This document shows, one piece after another, positions 33,270 through 37,701 of a stretch of 42,692 bases of DNA (its first letter is position 1; each line of letters starts with the position of its first letter). This DNA is from a virus. The position numbers and the translations under genes are program-made. The stretch is taken from positions 1 to 42,692 of IMG/VR virus record IMGVR_UViG_3300008262_000107; one strand, given 5' to 3'. Under the pieces are notes generated by a model that searched no databases, was not told the DNA's origin, and saw nothing but the letters and a program-made list of their open reading frames with translations.

Positions 33270-33761
33270 ATGGCAGAAGTATTAGAATTTAACGATATGT
33301 TCTATACCAATTTCGAACCGAAGATGAAGAACCGCTTCATCTTCGAAGTAGGTGGTATTCCTTCATATTTAATAAAAGCATCTCAAAGACCTACAATTCA
33401 ATTTGAAAAGGTTACTCTGGATCACATTAACGTAAAAAGACAACTTAAAGGCAAGGGTGAGTGGCAAGATATTACAATGACTCTTTATGACCCAATTGTT
33501 CCTTCAGGAGCACAAGCGGTAATGGAGTGGATACGTTTATCTCACGAATCATTAACTGGTAGAAATGGATATGCTGATATGTATAAAAAAGATATTCAAT
33601 GTTATATGTTAGGTCCTGTGGGTGATAAAATCGAACAATGGACTCTAAAAGGAGCTTTCATTTCTCAAGCTAACTTTGGTGATTTGGATTGGGCAACTGG
33701 TACCGACCCTGCTACAATCGAATTAACAATTTCTTACGATTACGCAATCTTGGAATTCTAA
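33270..33761 (+). CDS. Tail tube protein, gp19-like
   Basis: The 163-residue protein equals T4 gp19 in length (163) and forms the hexameric rings of the inner tail tube. Recognisable parts are the start MFYTNFEPKMKNRFIFEVGG, then IPSYLIKASQRPTIQFEKVT, and the middle ITMTLYDPIVPSGAQAVMEW; the last strand ISYDYAILEF completes the tube fold. AGGAGA before the ATG is a strong Shine-Dalgarno site. A strong terminator follows, ending the sheath-tube unit. Confidence 0.92.
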   Translation: MAEVLEFNDMFYTNFEPKMKNRFIFEVGGIPSYLIKASQRPTIQFEKVTLDHINVKRQLKGKGEWQDITMTLYDPIVPSGAQAVMEWIRLSHESLTGRNGYADMYKKDIQCYMLGPVGDKIEQWTLKGAFISQANFGDLDWATGTDPATIELTISYDYAILEF

Positions 33762-33787
33762 TACATTATTTCATTTTCTTATACAAG

Positions 33788-33818
33788 AGAGTTCTCGAAA
33801 TGAGAACTCTTTTTTTTT
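33788..33818 (+). terminator. Rho-independent terminator after the tube gene
   Basis: AGAGTTCTC, loop GAAAT, GAGAACTCT makes a perfect 9-bp stem with a long T-run. Confidence 0.94.
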
Positions 33819-33871: not shown

Positions 33872-34627
33872 ATGGCAAATTATGATTTTCCAACCGAAGT
33901 AATTTCACTTCCATCTCAAGGATTATGTTATCCTGAATCAAATCCTCTCTCTTCTGGTCAAATAGAAATTAAATACATGACTGCAAAAGAAGAAGAAATC
34001 TTAACATCTCAAAATTTAATTAAAAAAGGTATAGTTTTAGATAAATTATTTGAATCTATTATAGTAGATAGTAAAATCAATGTTGATGATATTCTACTTG
34101 GTGATAAAAATGCTATTATGTTAGCAACTCGTATTTTGGGGTATGGACCTGAATATAATATTCAACTTACAAACAATTTAGATGAAAAAGAAGATGTAGT
34201 TGTTGATTTATCAAAAGTTCAGGTAAAAGAAGTTGATACTACTTTATTAACTCGAGAAAATAAATATAAATTTACAACATCAAATGGTAATCAATTAGAA
34301 TTTAGATTATTGACACATGGTGATGAAAAAAAGATAGATGCCGATATAAAATCACTACAAAGATTAAATAAAGGTGCTTTAGGTGCTGAATTAACAACTA
34401 GATATAGATACATGATTGTTTCTGTAAATGGTAAAACTGATACTGGTGCTATCACAAATTTTATCAACAACCAATTCTTAACTAGAGATACTAAAGCATT
34501 TAGAGAATACATTAAAAAAATACAACCAGATGTGAAAATGGAGTTTGAATATGAAGACCCCCAAACGGGAGAAAAGGAGGTACGCTCGATTCCAATGGGC
34601 GTAGGGTTTTTTTGGCCTTCCGAGTAA
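33872..34627 (+). CDS. Tail assembly chaperone / baseplate assembly protein, gp26-like (unshifted product)
   Basis: The 251-residue product starts MANYDFPTEVISLPSQGLCY and has IEIKYMTAKEEEILTSQNLI, the pattern of gp26-type (T4_baseplate) proteins. A mid-protein THGDEKKIDADIKSLQRLNK and the end IPMGVGFFWPSE follow. The position, after the tube and before the tape measure, is that of tail assembly chaperones in most contractile and siphophage tails. These coat the tape measure during assembly and are usually made in two lengths by frameshifting. Here a T7 run (34607-34613) just before the stop would allow a shift into a further 74-codon frame. AAAGG is a modest Shine-Dalgarno site. T4 gp26 is 208 residues. 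Confidence 0.78.
   Translation: MANYDFPTEVISLPSQGLCYPESNPLSSGQIEIKYMTAKEEEILTSQNLIKKGIVLDKLFESIIVDSKINVDDILLGDKNAIMLATRILGYGPEYNIQLTNNLDEKEDVVVDLSKVQVKEVDTTLLTRENKYKFTTSNGNQLEFRLLTHGDEKKIDADIKSLQRLNKGALGAELTTRYRYMIVSVNGKTDTGAITNFINNQFLTRDTKAFREYIKKIQPDVKMEFEYEDPQTGEKEVRSIPMGVGFFWPSE
34607..34613 (+). other. Candidate programmed frameshift slippery site (T7)
   Basis: The zero frame reads GTA GGG TTT TTT TGG CCT TCC GAG TAA. The downstream frame is +1 relative to it. A stop (TAG, 34602-34604) closes that frame upstream, so any shift must lie between 34605 and the TAA at 34625. Slipping +1 or -2 on the T run re-pairs Phe tRNA with TTT. An AAGGAGGT-like sequence at 34574-34581 could pair with 16S rRNA but lies farther away than in known stimulators. 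Confidence 0.6.
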
Positions 34628-34838
34628 TTATTCAATTATACTTCATAAACAAATTTTTGAATTATGTTATTTTGGTAATGGATTTACTCAAGAAGGAGTT
34701 TATCGATTACCAATACACATACGAAATTTCTACTACAAACAATTGATAGATACTAAAAAAAGAGAACAAGAAGATGTAAAACAATCTCAGAAATCTAAAT
34801 CAGCTGTAAGTGGCCCAAATGTAAATGTGAGAAGGTAA
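34614..34838 (+). CDS. Frameshift extension of the tail chaperone (T-like domain)
   Basis: This 74-codon open stretch follows the slip site and has no ATG, GTG or TTG start that would keep the domain whole. It reads GLPSNYSIILHKQIFELCYF, then GNGFTQEGVYRLPIHIRNFY, then a Lys/Glu/Gln-rich helix (YKQLIDTKKREQEDVKQSQK) and a basic end (VNVRR). The LPIHIRNFYYKQ part resembles the C-terminal, tape-measure-facing domains of long-form tail chaperones. The fusion would be about 321 residues (+1) or 322 (-2). A one-base sequencing error in the T run would give the same picture as a single long ORF, so reads should be checked. Confidence 0.7.
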   Translation, partial: GLPSNYSIILHKQIFELCYFGNGFTQEGVYRLPIHIRNFYYKQLIDTKKREQEDVKQSQKSKSAVSGPNVNVRR

Positions 34839-34858
34839 AACTCCTCACATTTTTTTTT
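34823..34858 (+). terminator. Terminator overlapping the end of the frameshift extension
   Basis: AAATGTGAG and CTCACATTT form a 9-bp stem around a 12-base loop, followed by a T-run. The left arm and the stop codon in the loop belong to the coding extension, so translation of the long form would run into the hairpin. Confidence 0.88.
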
Positions 34859-34897: not shown

Positions 34898-35149
34898 ATG
34901 AAACTTACTGAAACAAAAAAAAATAAAATAAAAGAATTTATATCGAAAAAACACGATATGAAAGAAGGTGTTGTTGATTACATTTTTGGAAAAAAAATGG
35001 TTTCAAATTTAGAAAAAGATGACGATTTTTTGAAACTTGCTAGAAGTTTGGATAATGATATGGATACCCTTCGTAAAAAAGTAGAAAGAATGCAAAAAAA
35101 CGGAGAAAGAATTCCTCATACATACAAAGCTATTTTAAACATTAGATAA
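34898..35149 (+). CDS. Small basic helical protein before the tape measure (83 residues)
   Basis: A Lys-rich, helical protein (LTETKKNKIKEFISKKHDMK, then LDNDMDTLRKKVERMQKNGE). GGAG ten bases before the ATG is a fair Shine-Dalgarno site. No family is recognised. Its site between chaperone and tape measure suggests an additional tail assembly factor, which is inference from context. Confidence 0.65.
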   Translation: MKLTETKKNKIKEFISKKHDMKEGVVDYIFGKKMVSNLEKDDDFLKLARSLDNDMDTLRKKVERMQKNGERIPHTYKAILNIR

Positions 35150-35160
35150 GATTTTAAAAA

Positions 35161-37701
35161 ATGTTAAACAATTCCCAGCAACAAAGAGAAATACTAAAAT
35201 TACAAAATGAATATAATGAGGCATTAAGAGTATCTCAATCAATAGCTGGTGCAATAGTTCAAGATTTAGAAGACCAAATTAATAACACAAATGATATAAG
35301 TAGTGCTACAAAAAAATATATTCAAAATTTACAAAGTTCGGTAAAAAGTTTAGAAGATTCCGAAGATGTTCAAAAACAAATTATAAAAAATAATAAGGCA
35401 ATAAATAATCTCCAAAGAGGTATTACTGATGCAAATAGAAAAGATGTTGAACAAAGGGTAGCTGCTTTACAAATAACAAATGAAGGATTACAATTAGATT
35501 TAAAAAGATTAACCACTATACAAAAGGTAGATGATGCTGCACAAAAGTTAGGAAGTAGCATGGGTGATGCTTTTGATGGTTTAGTTGATACGTTCGATGA
35601 AATTCCCCTAGTTGGTGGTATGCTATCCAAACTTGGTAAAATGGGTTCTTCGGTTTTTAAACAACAATTAGGAGTTGCATCAAAACAATTTACTACAAAT
35701 TTTGCAAGTAATTTAGGGCAAGGTCAAGGTGTTATAACTGCTCTAAGAGGTGCAATGGGTGGTCTTTCAACTGGTGCAGCTGCAACTGCAATTGCAATTG
35801 GTGCAGTATTAATAGTAGTTGCTGCAGTAGTGGCAACAATCGCTATGGCAATAAAGAGATTCTCGGAACTTGACCAAGCAGCAAAAGCTTTTAGAGAGGA
35901 AACTGGTTTATTAGTTTCCCAAACAAGAGGAATGCAACAAAACATTCGTAATACGAATGTTGATTTCGCTAATTTAGGTGTAAGTGCCGAAAACGCAGCA
36001 AAAGCAGCAGCCGAATTTACAAATGCATTTGATGGATTACAACAACCATCTGAAGCTGTAATGGGTTCTATTTTAGTATTAAACAAGAACTTTGGAGTTT
36101 CGATAACCGAAGCAACGAAATTAAATAAAGTATTCCAAAACATTGGAGATTTAACTGCAGAACAATCTCAAGCATTAATAGGTCAAACTGTTGAAATGGC
36201 CAAATTGGCAGGTGTTTCACCTGATAAGGTTATTAAGGATATGGCGGATAATTCCGAATATGCTTACAAATACTTTGGAGGTTCGGCTGAAGAATTAAGA
36301 AATGCAGCAGTTGAAGCAGCTAAATTAGGAACCTCTATTGGAGAAGCAGGTAAAGTAGCAGATAATTTATTAGATTTTGAAAAATCTATATCATCTGAAT
36401 TAGAAGCATCTGCTATGTTAGGCCAAAATTTAAATTTTGGTAGAGCAAGACAACTAGCAGCAACCAAAGATGTACTTGGTGCTCAACAAGCTGTGGTTGA
36501 TGAGGTGATGAAGTTAGGTGATGTAACAAAACTCAATTCCTTTGAACAAGAAAAAATTGCAGAAGCAAGTAATATGACAATCGAATCTCTAGCAACTCAA
36601 CAAAAAATTAGAGAACGATTTGGAGTTTTAGATAAAGAAAATTTAGCAGCTGCATTAGCTCTTGCTGATGCGGGTAAAGATATATCCGAATTATCCGAGG
36701 CCGATTTAAAGGCACAGACCGATAAACTAGCAAAACAACAAGAGATGCAATCAGTAACCGATGCATTGAAAAATGAAGTTAGTTCTTTGAGTACTGGATT
36801 TATGGACATGATGGCTCCTCTTGGTTCAACTATTATGAATAACTTGTTAGACCAAATGAAAAATATGGGTGTAATTGTAAGACCAATAATGAAATTTTTT
36901 GGAGCGTTATTCAGTATAATTTTTGGTGTTCTTGGTGCTATGAATGATGTATTTCAGGCAGTAGTTGGGCCAATATATGCAATAGGTGGGGCGATATTAG
37001 AAATGTTAATCACACCTATTGAAAGAGTTGTAGAAAGATTACAACCATTGTTTGATAAATTTAAAGAATTAAAATCAAAAACAATGGAAGCAATAGAACC
37101 TATTATGGAGATATTTCGAAAGTTAGGTGATTTATTTGCCGCACAAGTAGATGCTGGACCAATGGGTTACTTTATAGATTTTATGGTTTGGGGAATGGGA
37201 AAAATATTTGAAGTTATTGGATTTATAGCAGAAGGTTTAGCATTTGTATTAACTCCGGTTATGGATTTTATAATGTTTTTGACAGAAGGTATTCAATCCA
37301 TATCAAGTGTTATAGATGAATATCTTATCCAACCATTAGTTAAAGCAGGAGACCTTCTTAATACCGTTTCATTTGGTACACTTGGCTCAGCTGCTCCACC
37401 AACAAATGAATCAGGTGAATCGATAAATGATGGTGTAGTCCAAAACGGACAAGTTGTATCAACTCATCCTGATGACTTCTTAATAGCAACTAAAAATCCT
37501 GCAGGATTAGCAGATTCAATGAGTGGAGGAGGTGGGGCTCCGATGGTTTCTATGGAAGGTGTCATTGCAGAATTACGAGAATTAAAAGCAGCATTTTTAG
37601 CAAATAAAGATGTATATATGGATAGTGCAAAGGTTACAAGTGTTGTAAGGAAAAAAACTGAAACGAGTACCGATAATAAATTTGGAACTCAATTTGCTTA
37701 A
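35161..37701 (+). CDS. Tail tape measure protein (846 residues)
   Basis: Tape measure proteins span the tube lumen during assembly, set tail length and often reach the host membrane during DNA entry. Evidence: position after the chaperones; a helical, Gln/Asn/Lys-rich N-terminus (about 1-170); a hydrophobic segment at about 203-230 (AAATAIAIGAVLIVVAAVVA); a long helical Ala/Glu-rich middle; and further hydrophobic stretches at about 574-617 (MKFFGALFSIIFGVLGAMND) and 669-706. The C-terminus is polar with a Gly patch (SMSGGGGAPMVS). T4 gp29 is 590 residues, so a longer tail is expected. There is no Shine-Dalgarno site; it begins 11 bases after the small gene. Confidence 0.86.
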   Translation: MLNNSQQQREILKLQNEYNEALRVSQSIAGAIVQDLEDQINNTNDISSATKKYIQNLQSSVKSLEDSEDVQKQIIKNNKAINNLQRGITDANRKDVEQRVAALQITNEGLQLDLKRLTTIQKVDDAAQKLGSSMGDAFDGLVDTFDEIPLVGGMLSKLGKMGSSVFKQQLGVASKQFTTNFASNLGQGQGVITALRGAMGGLSTGAAATAIAIGAVLIVVAAVVATIAMAIKRFSELDQAAKAFREETGLLVSQTRGMQQNIRNTNVDFANLGVSAENAAKAAAEFTNAFDGLQQPSEAVMGSILVLNKNFGVSITEATKLNKVFQNIGDLTAEQSQALIGQTVEMAKLAGVSPDKVIKDMADNSEYAYKYFGGSAEELRNAAVEAAKLGTSIGEAGKVADNLLDFEKSISSELEASAMLGQNLNFGRARQLAATKDVLGAQQAVVDEVMKLGDVTKLNSFEQEKIAEASNMTIESLATQQKIRERFGVLDKENLAAALALADAGKDISELSEADLKAQTDKLAKQQEMQSVTDALKNEVSSLSTGFMDMMAPLGSTIMNNLLDQMKNMGVIVRPIMKFFGALFSIIFGVLGAMNDVFQAVVGPIYAIGGAILEMLITPIERVVERLQPLFDKFKELKSKTMEAIEPIMEIFRKLGDLFAAQVDAGPMGYFIDFMVWGMGKIFEVIGFIAEGLAFVLTPVMDFIMFLTEGIQSISSVIDEYLIQPLVKAGDLLNTVSFGTLGSAAPPTNESGESINDGVVQNGQVVSTHPDDFLIATKNPAGLADSMSGGGGAPMVSMEGVIAELRELKAAFLANKDVYMDSAKVTSVVRKKTETSTDNKFGTQFA

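Follow-up and report, generated by a model that had tools for sequence, protein, structure and literature searches.

How might a T4-like phage draw two lengths of tail assembly chaperone from a single gene? The question is raised by one locus in IMG/VR record IMGVR_UViG_3300008262_000107, of which all 42,692 nucleotides were analyzed (hereafter, the window). A gp26-like open reading frame (ORF) stops at position 34627, and the next frame is open from 34605 to 34838, giving 77 amino acids from the TAG at 34602-34604 and 70 amino acids beyond the 0-frame stop; the initial annotation had reported this stop and this open frame, and its coordinates hold in the window. We propose that one gene yields two tail assembly chaperones by +1 ribosomal frameshifting at UUU-Y, a reading to which, from the comparative data below, we would give a probability of roughly three in four. 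The features of the locus are as follows.

33270..33761, + strand: tail tube gene (gp19-like), directly upstream (PF06841, E 3e-8; PHROG_4542, E 7.2e-29)
33872..34627, + strand: short form (TAC-N, a T4 gp26-like tail assembly chaperone), 251 amino acids
34576..34580, + strand: GGAGG, a Shine-Dalgarno (SD)-like element, 26 nt before the T run
34581..34603, + strand: predicted 8-bp hairpin (34581-34588 paired with 34596-34603), ending 3 nt before the T run
34602..34604, + strand: TAG in the +1 frame, upstream limit of the putative shift
34607..34613, + strand: candidate shift site TTT TTT T (UUU-Y), a run of seven Ts (T7)
34614..34838, + strand: +1-frame extension, the predicted C-terminal part of the long form, 74 amino acids plus stop (long form, about 321 amino acids)
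34625..34627, + strand: TAA, the 0-frame stop and downstream limit of the putative shift
34898-35149: charged ORF of 83 amino acids, between chaperone and tape measure genes
35161..37701, + strand: probable tape measure gene, downstream, assigned by position and length (weak PHROG_4211 match, E 0.024)

The chaperone gene and its open downstream frame

Genes in the window run in the order tail sheath, gp19-like tube, chaperone, 83-amino-acid ORF, and an 846-amino-acid tape-measure-like protein. The chaperone gene is placed between tube and tape-measure-like genes, as in G/GT-type pairs, with a weak match for the tape measure. No tRNA genes were found in the window. A strong terminator-like hairpin with a T run (13 pairs) occupies the interval between tail tube and chaperone at 33785-33818, and SP-15 has an annotated terminator in the same gene interval. 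An inverted repeat and then a T run were also seen by eye at 34823-34858, just after the extension stop; the terminator scan has no entry there.

The initial annotation called the ORF product a gp26-like tail chaperone, an identification borne out by PHROG_150, which the short protein matches at an E value of 1.3e-9 and which also takes in T4 gp26 (E 6.7e-71) and gp51 (E 2.6e-84). The window protein has no PF12322 (T4_baseplate) match at an E value of 1 and no convincing Pfam match; among its relatives, SP-15 and LIS04 match PF12322 and immuto does not. The AlphaFold model of the short form (pLDDT 90.4, pTM 0.86) matches T4-like baseplate hub proteins in BFVD. Among solved structures, the best was 2ob9, a tail assembly chaperone from HK97, with a Z of 4.1 over 92 residues, a value too low to decide on a chaperone fold, and no PDB fold relative above it was in the results; Foldseek gave no match to the PDB at an E value of 0.001, and a PDB sequence search gave no meaningful match. 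The extension is modeled as three predicted helices (pLDDT 84.3, pTM 0.60), for which a fold search gave no significant match. Across 31 aligned extensions, the motif VYxMPxxLRxFYYKKL is conserved, with one Y, one P, and one R invariant.

A family profile search gave exactly one match in 14 of 15 phage records, a set in which 6 of the 15 are IMG/VR contigs and possibly fragments. In the fifteenth record, that of cyanophage Sf-FS3, the profile missed a known chaperone, which weakens the single-copy result because divergent second copies might escape too.

The extension was also said to have no usable start, and we agree, because the only ATG, GTG, or TTG codons in its frame past the stop are a TTG at 118 nt and a GTG at 202 nt, as read in L001, whose short protein is identical; the window shows the same codons. 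The first of these falls beyond the conserved segment GLPxxYxxxLHxQIFE. T7 runs themselves are common, with 42 on both strands of the window versus 56 expected from shuffles, which is not above chance, so the run alone is meaningless and it is the conserved layout that carries the meaning.

Conservation of the layout and of the UUU-Y site

A first set of 80 IMG/VR relatives contained 79 readable loci (the site of L012 was unreadable). In these 79, an FF or FL pair comes shortly before the 0-frame stop, past which the +1 frame is open; the commonest site sequence is TTT TTT T(GG|AC) CC, and two contigs (L044 and L045) end before the +1 frame closes. In all, 278 of 383 loci were classified, some contigs being present in more than one scan. 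The 105 left out comprise the window copy (L081), L012, the T4 and S-PM2 regions, L090, L091, and L093-L096 (phages read one by one), L098-L177 (80 loci from a cyanophage query, 20 of which were read), and L201-L215 (gp51 work). The site was readable in 273 of the 278; among the remaining 5, 3 are not covered, 1 is cut, and L088 has no FF in its last codons.

The +1 layout, in which a gp26-like ORF stops after FF or FL with the +1 frame open, occurs in 268 of the 273 readable loci, in line with the initial suggestion that the chaperone may be made in two lengths. Past the stop, 262 loci have 45 or more open codons in the +1 frame, and in 6 more that frame is still open where the contig ends; an equally long open -1 frame is found in 27 of the 273. 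When counted as distinct contexts, 199 of 203 have the layout. Known phages that share it include Flavobacterium phage immuto, Microcystis phage Mel-JY01, Bacillus SP-15, Listeria LIS04, and Streptococcus GXN1, and the huge phage LR756508 has it too. When SP-15 was used as a query of IMG/VR, it matched only itself, and a chaperone gene was not found in the S-PM2 annotation table between 85 and 134 kb. Six of the eight GTDB contigs found are named after Bacteroidota groups, the named MAG groups presumably being Bacteroidota, and the host of immuto is Flavobacterium; many phages of the +1 clade probably infect Bacteroidota. In existing annotations, the Mel-JY01 extension is a separate hypothetical gene, as is the last part of the immuto extension, and the long chaperone forms are missing.

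The initial annotation held that the TAG at 34602 and the TAA at 34625 confine the shift to about 20 bases. This interval holds across homologues: in 85 loci, the last +1-frame stop and the 0-frame stop would confine the shift to between position -2 of the FF pair and a stop at +15 to +27. Within it, all 199 distinct +1 loci have TTT followed by T or C. The seven-base sites are TTTTTTT in 151 loci, TTTCTTT in 31, TTCTTTT in 10, TTTCTAT in 4, and three others once each, and a change from UUU to UUU or UUC is the one re-pairing common to all site variants. The site reads TTTTTTT in 55 of 57 representatives, versus TTTTTT in 23 of 78 FF pairs elsewhere in the same loci, where the next base is T in 1 of 78.

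The base before the pair is constrained as well. The codon preceding FF ends in T in 0 of 57 representatives, versus 28.7 expected from amino acids and codon usage; a smaller control, in which T precedes TTTTTT pairs elsewhere in 4 of 23 cases, gives a Fisher p of 0.0065. T precedes TTTTTTT in 0 of 151 loci and the site in general in 4 of 199, each with a TTCTTTT site; on its 3' side, the run extends to an eighth T in 2 of 199. That the T run is never extended on its 5' side is new, as far as we have searched. Exclusion of this T may guard against a wrong shift because T_TTT_TTC is the -1 site of relatives; it also caps the T run on the 5' side.

Both frames bear the marks of selection. Median dN/dS in the extension, with the 0-frame overlap left out, is 0.12, and 188 of 189 pairs, which are not independent, fall below 0.5; the extension is under purifying selection. 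Across 57 representatives, the most variable codon position passes from the third base of the 0 frame upstream (1.63 bits) to the third base of the +1 frame downstream (1.59 bits), and the seven Ts and the CC at positions 9 and 10 are nearly or fully fixed. Selection in the +1 frame starts at the FF codons. At the level of sequence, the layout, the selection on both frames, and the conservation of UUU-Y are evident, and the programmed frame change appears real and widely conserved, most likely as +1 ribosomal frameshifting at UUU-Y.

Upstream signals, a proposed mechanism, and its competitors

A sequence element had been noted 26 bases upstream of the T run, and it is indeed there, as GGAGG at 34576-34580. 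In the family, GGAGG occupies -31 to -27 in 64 of 199 distinct loci, versus 20 of 34,825 same-phase control positions of the same genes, and is present in 40 of 121 representatives, versus 1.6 expected from amino acids and codon usage; any SD-like word falls between -36 and -22 in 67 of 121, versus 14.5 expected. SD-like words within 20 nt of the site are almost absent (2 of 199). Family-wide, the sequence before the site folds beyond a synonymous, GC-matched control, with Stouffer values of -10.6 for -24 to -4 and -7.2 for -27 to -1, versus +0.1 to -3.0 in five control windows.

In the window, the hairpin fills the gap from GGAGG to the 3-nt spacer; taken alone it is not significant, with 18 of 200 shuffles folding at least as well. 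The upstream hairpin shows no fixed-register covariation, the only synonymous pair of its common form being -16:-7 (z 2.6) and the highest value among 465 pairs scanned being 4.4 at -20:-10, which leaves folding energy, with its synonymous and GC-matched controls, as what argues for the hairpin. The Gram-positive phages SP-15, LIS04, and GXN1 have no hairpin signal (z +0.42, +0.55, and -0.57). GGAGG and the hairpin probably stimulate the shift, and their occurrence upstream of a +1 site is new, as far as we have searched.

Bacteroidota ribosomes hide their anti-SD, and SD sequences are said to go unused in these hosts, which would make a conserved GGAGG odd. By a strict count, SD sequences precede 3 of 23 genes in the window and 72 of 330 across representative loci; the figures are 2 of 15 for the T4 locus and 11 of 16 for the SP-15 group. 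A low count was considered as a sign of non-SD hosts and shows little, as the T4 locus scores equally low, which makes the cassette reading given below slightly less likely.

Downstream of the site, a general 3' stimulator is not clear (folding mean z -0.95 over 63 loci, 9 of them below -2), and a weaker signal appears at +25 to +51 (Stouffer -5.7, n 121, without GC control). A 7-bp hairpin after the T run in 8 loci, which were picked for a visible hairpin, has two-sided changes at 7 of 7 pairs. L052, L055, L057, L059, L061, and L073 carry a 7-bp hairpin shortly 3' of the T run, with base changes on both sides, which may be a lineage-specific 3' stimulator.

As we picture the mechanism, most ribosomes would stop at 34625 and release the 251-amino-acid short form. 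A minority would slip one base forward at UUU UUU U, where the P-site tRNA-Phe (anticodon GAA) would re-pair from UUU to a UUU or UUC one base on; GGC (34614) would then be read next, and translation would continue to 34838 to give the long form of about 321 residues, a TAC-NC protein that may be the equivalent of T4 gp51. The pair would have a G/GT-like role, in which tail tube subunits are brought to the tape measure. From sequence we infer the shift itself, its ribosomal nature, the tRNA step, the short-to-long ratio, and the G/GT-like role.

A more elaborate reading, which we regard as tentative and more apt to fail than to hold, joins these parts into a new +1 cassette of GGAGG, a hairpin, a 3-nt spacer whose last base is never U when U7 follows, and UUU-Y. 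The hairpin, folding behind the ribosome, might bring the SD-like element to within 3 nt of the first UUU, which is the RF2 spacing, or might push the ribosome forward; the base before FF and the sixth base of the pair might set +1 versus -1, and the gene family would then have switched direction in evolution.

The frame change might instead take place before translation, an alternative that the initial annotation did not raise. Under transcriptional slippage, the nascent 5' hairpin would cause RNA polymerase to drop one U of U7, and the resulting U6 transcript would encode the long form. The window hairpin stands 3 nt before T7, such hairpins are enriched in the family, and a terminator scan lists the window hairpin plus T7 as intrinsic-terminator-like; moreover, a passage in PMC5009743 describes stem-loop-driven RNA polymerase slippage at T5C5 in a Roseiflexus insertion sequence, with transcripts that lack one base. 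However, the longest T run is 3 in 36 and 4 in 10 of the 199 distinct loci, and the +1 layout persists in these. The hairpin signal is also present at short-run sites, with mean z values of -1.28 for TTTCTTT (n 13), -1.9 for TTCTTTT (n 6), and -2.67 for TTTCTAT (n 2), beside -1.01 for T7 (n 127). A hairpin that is independent of a long T run favors the ribosome, with the T7 cases not settled by this argument; slippage by the polymerase is a serious competitor, though the less likely account overall.

The initial annotation had left the direction as +1 or -2 at T7. A -2 ribosomal slip, with one extra Phe, as in phage Mu, would reach the same frame, and single-tRNA re-pairing is possible on T7; nevertheless, TTCTTTT, TTTCTTT, and TTTCTAT keep the layout and offer no UUU re-pairing two bases back, which makes this slip very unlikely. 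The +1 alternative is the one that the comparisons support, and T7 appears not to be essential, since the frame offset is kept in 199 of 203 distinct contexts and T7 is found in only 151 of 199 loci, with UUU-Y as the conserved part. That the extension is a separate gene, expressed by re-initiation or from a hidden start, is improbable. Relatives do have separate starts, namely, L188 and L193 (ATG at the stop) and Cygsa01 (TAATG), and in each of the 20 cyanophage loci read an ATG stands 5 nt past the stop, in addition to the -1 site. In the window, by contrast, the first candidate start comes after a conserved segment of the extension; 172 of 199 loci have no start in the first 15 extension codons (the other 27 have 16 ATG and 11 GTG or TTG codons), and selection in the +1 frame is already present from the FF codons. 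As for a sequencing or assembly error or a decaying gene, the site is a homopolymer, but isolates (immuto, SP-15, LIS04, GXN1, and Mel-JY01) are among the 199 contexts with the same offset, and a dN/dS of 0.12 is at odds with decay; this account is refuted, and its probability is close to nil. Ribosomal +1 frameshifting at UUU-Y is the reading that we carry forward.

Relatives with other arrangements and comparison with known systems

The exceptions to the +1 layout are L188 and L193, which have lost TTT-Y, and L198-L200, which have a -1 arrangement. L188 and L193, with sites TTC TTG T and TTC CTT T, are the only 2 of 273 loci without TTT-Y; their extensions lie in the -1 frame, each with an ATG of its own no more than 10 nt from the stop. 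An independently started gene, which the initial annotation had named as one outcome that would count against it, thus occurs in these two and only where the shift site is lost. In a tree of 56 short-form sequences, both nest inside the +1 clade, and the loss of TTT-Y together with the presence of an ATG makes them a natural experiment for a shift at TTT-Y. The same tree places gp26 and gp51 on one side of a 100/98 branch, with a long-branch warning; deep forks are weakly placed, and the +1 label requires at least two changes.

L198-L200 have T_TTT_TTC with a -1 extension, and TTT-T is found there too, so TTT-Y alone does not set direction. The same gene, at the same FF position, has a -1 extension in cyanophages, PA5oct, Atu_ph07, IC12, RL38J1, and the LR756511 group. 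Of the 29 loci read, 28 have T_TTT_TTC as their -1 site and RL38J1 has T_TTT_TTG, and T precedes the pair in 29 of 29; Cygsa01, with its TAATG instead of a -1 site, was left out of the 29. The window, whose codon before FF is GGG and whose extension is in the +1 frame, does not fit the -1 heptamer X_XXY_YYZ. A huge-phage group of L088 and L198-L200 has the gene in a -1 version at xxT TTT TTC, and L088 has a GC-rich hairpin after the site. In Sf-FS3, the downstream part is annotated separately as "baseplate hub assembly catalyst," and a GGAGG precedes the site by 11 nt.

One gene family therefore offers, at the same protein position, a +1 shift, a -1 shift, a split in which the second part is started separately, and gene duplication, which allows single-base tests of what sets shift direction. 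Sites for +1 frameshifting are known from fewer cases than -1 sites, and this family supplies about two hundred natural ones. Experiments would be best spent on the switch in direction and on the upstream cassette.

The T4 proteins gp26 and gp51, both PF12322 proteins, belong to the same family as the window protein, with gp51 adding a C-terminal extension to the gp26 domain; in T4 the two are separate genes on opposite strands, whereas the window phage has one gene and a frame change. Direct comparison of the +1 extension with gp51 by HHalign is weak (probability 1.5%, E 0.035, with 1 of 12 gp51 rows incomplete), and the long form fares little better (3.0%). The cyanophage -1 extension aligns with the gp51 C terminus at 96.6% (E 6.7e-10) and with the +1 extension at 83% (E 8.9e-6). 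Because the direct comparison is weak, the link to gp51 relies on this chain through the cyanophage extensions.

Vladimirov et al. in 2022 reportedly described T4 gp26 and gp51 as a tail assembly chaperone pair from two genes. The link that the initial annotation drew between gp26 and the gpG/gpGT strategy is supported and, as papers citing that work indicate, had been published for T4 before (Vladimirov et al. 2022). According to other sources, some T4-like phages have short and long chaperone genes instead of a frameshift (PMC10885494, citing Vladimirov 2022), T4 is the exception to the rule of frameshifted tail chaperones (PMC5009743), and poly-T -1 signals occur in T4-like TAC-N genes (PMC12846349). 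A review of the T4 tail presents gp26 and gp51 as hub assembly chaperones, with gp51 not in the particle, and mentions work that places gp26 in the hub (PMC3004832). What is already known is thus gp26 and gp51 as two-gene chaperones and the -1 sites of other T4-like phages.

Recoding at +1 has its own precedents. At the RF2 site, an SD lies about 3 nt upstream and the A site holds a stop codon. Both RF2 and Listeria phage PSA use a +1 slip of the P-site tRNA, as the window gene would in our reading; the window differs in having neither a stop codon nor CCC at the slip, its A-site codon being UGG or UUU, and an SD-like element that is 26 nt off linearly. A +1 shift is reported for structural genes of PSA, and the chaperone shift of HSTV-2 is given as very likely +1 (PMC5009743). 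The Roseiflexus IS630 slippage likewise has a hairpin 5' of a T-rich run and the loss of one base, but its run is T5C5, whereas 46 of 199 loci here have T runs of only 3 or 4. In the open-access literature, whose coverage stops short of Vladimirov 2022, we found no +1 chaperone site described for any T4-related phage. The lambda gpG/gpGT type likewise obtains both chaperone lengths from a single gene in the interval between tail tube and tape measure, and such chaperones usually shift by -1, or by -2 in Mu; a +1 version, probably at UUU-Y, in a large T4-like clade is new, as far as we have searched.
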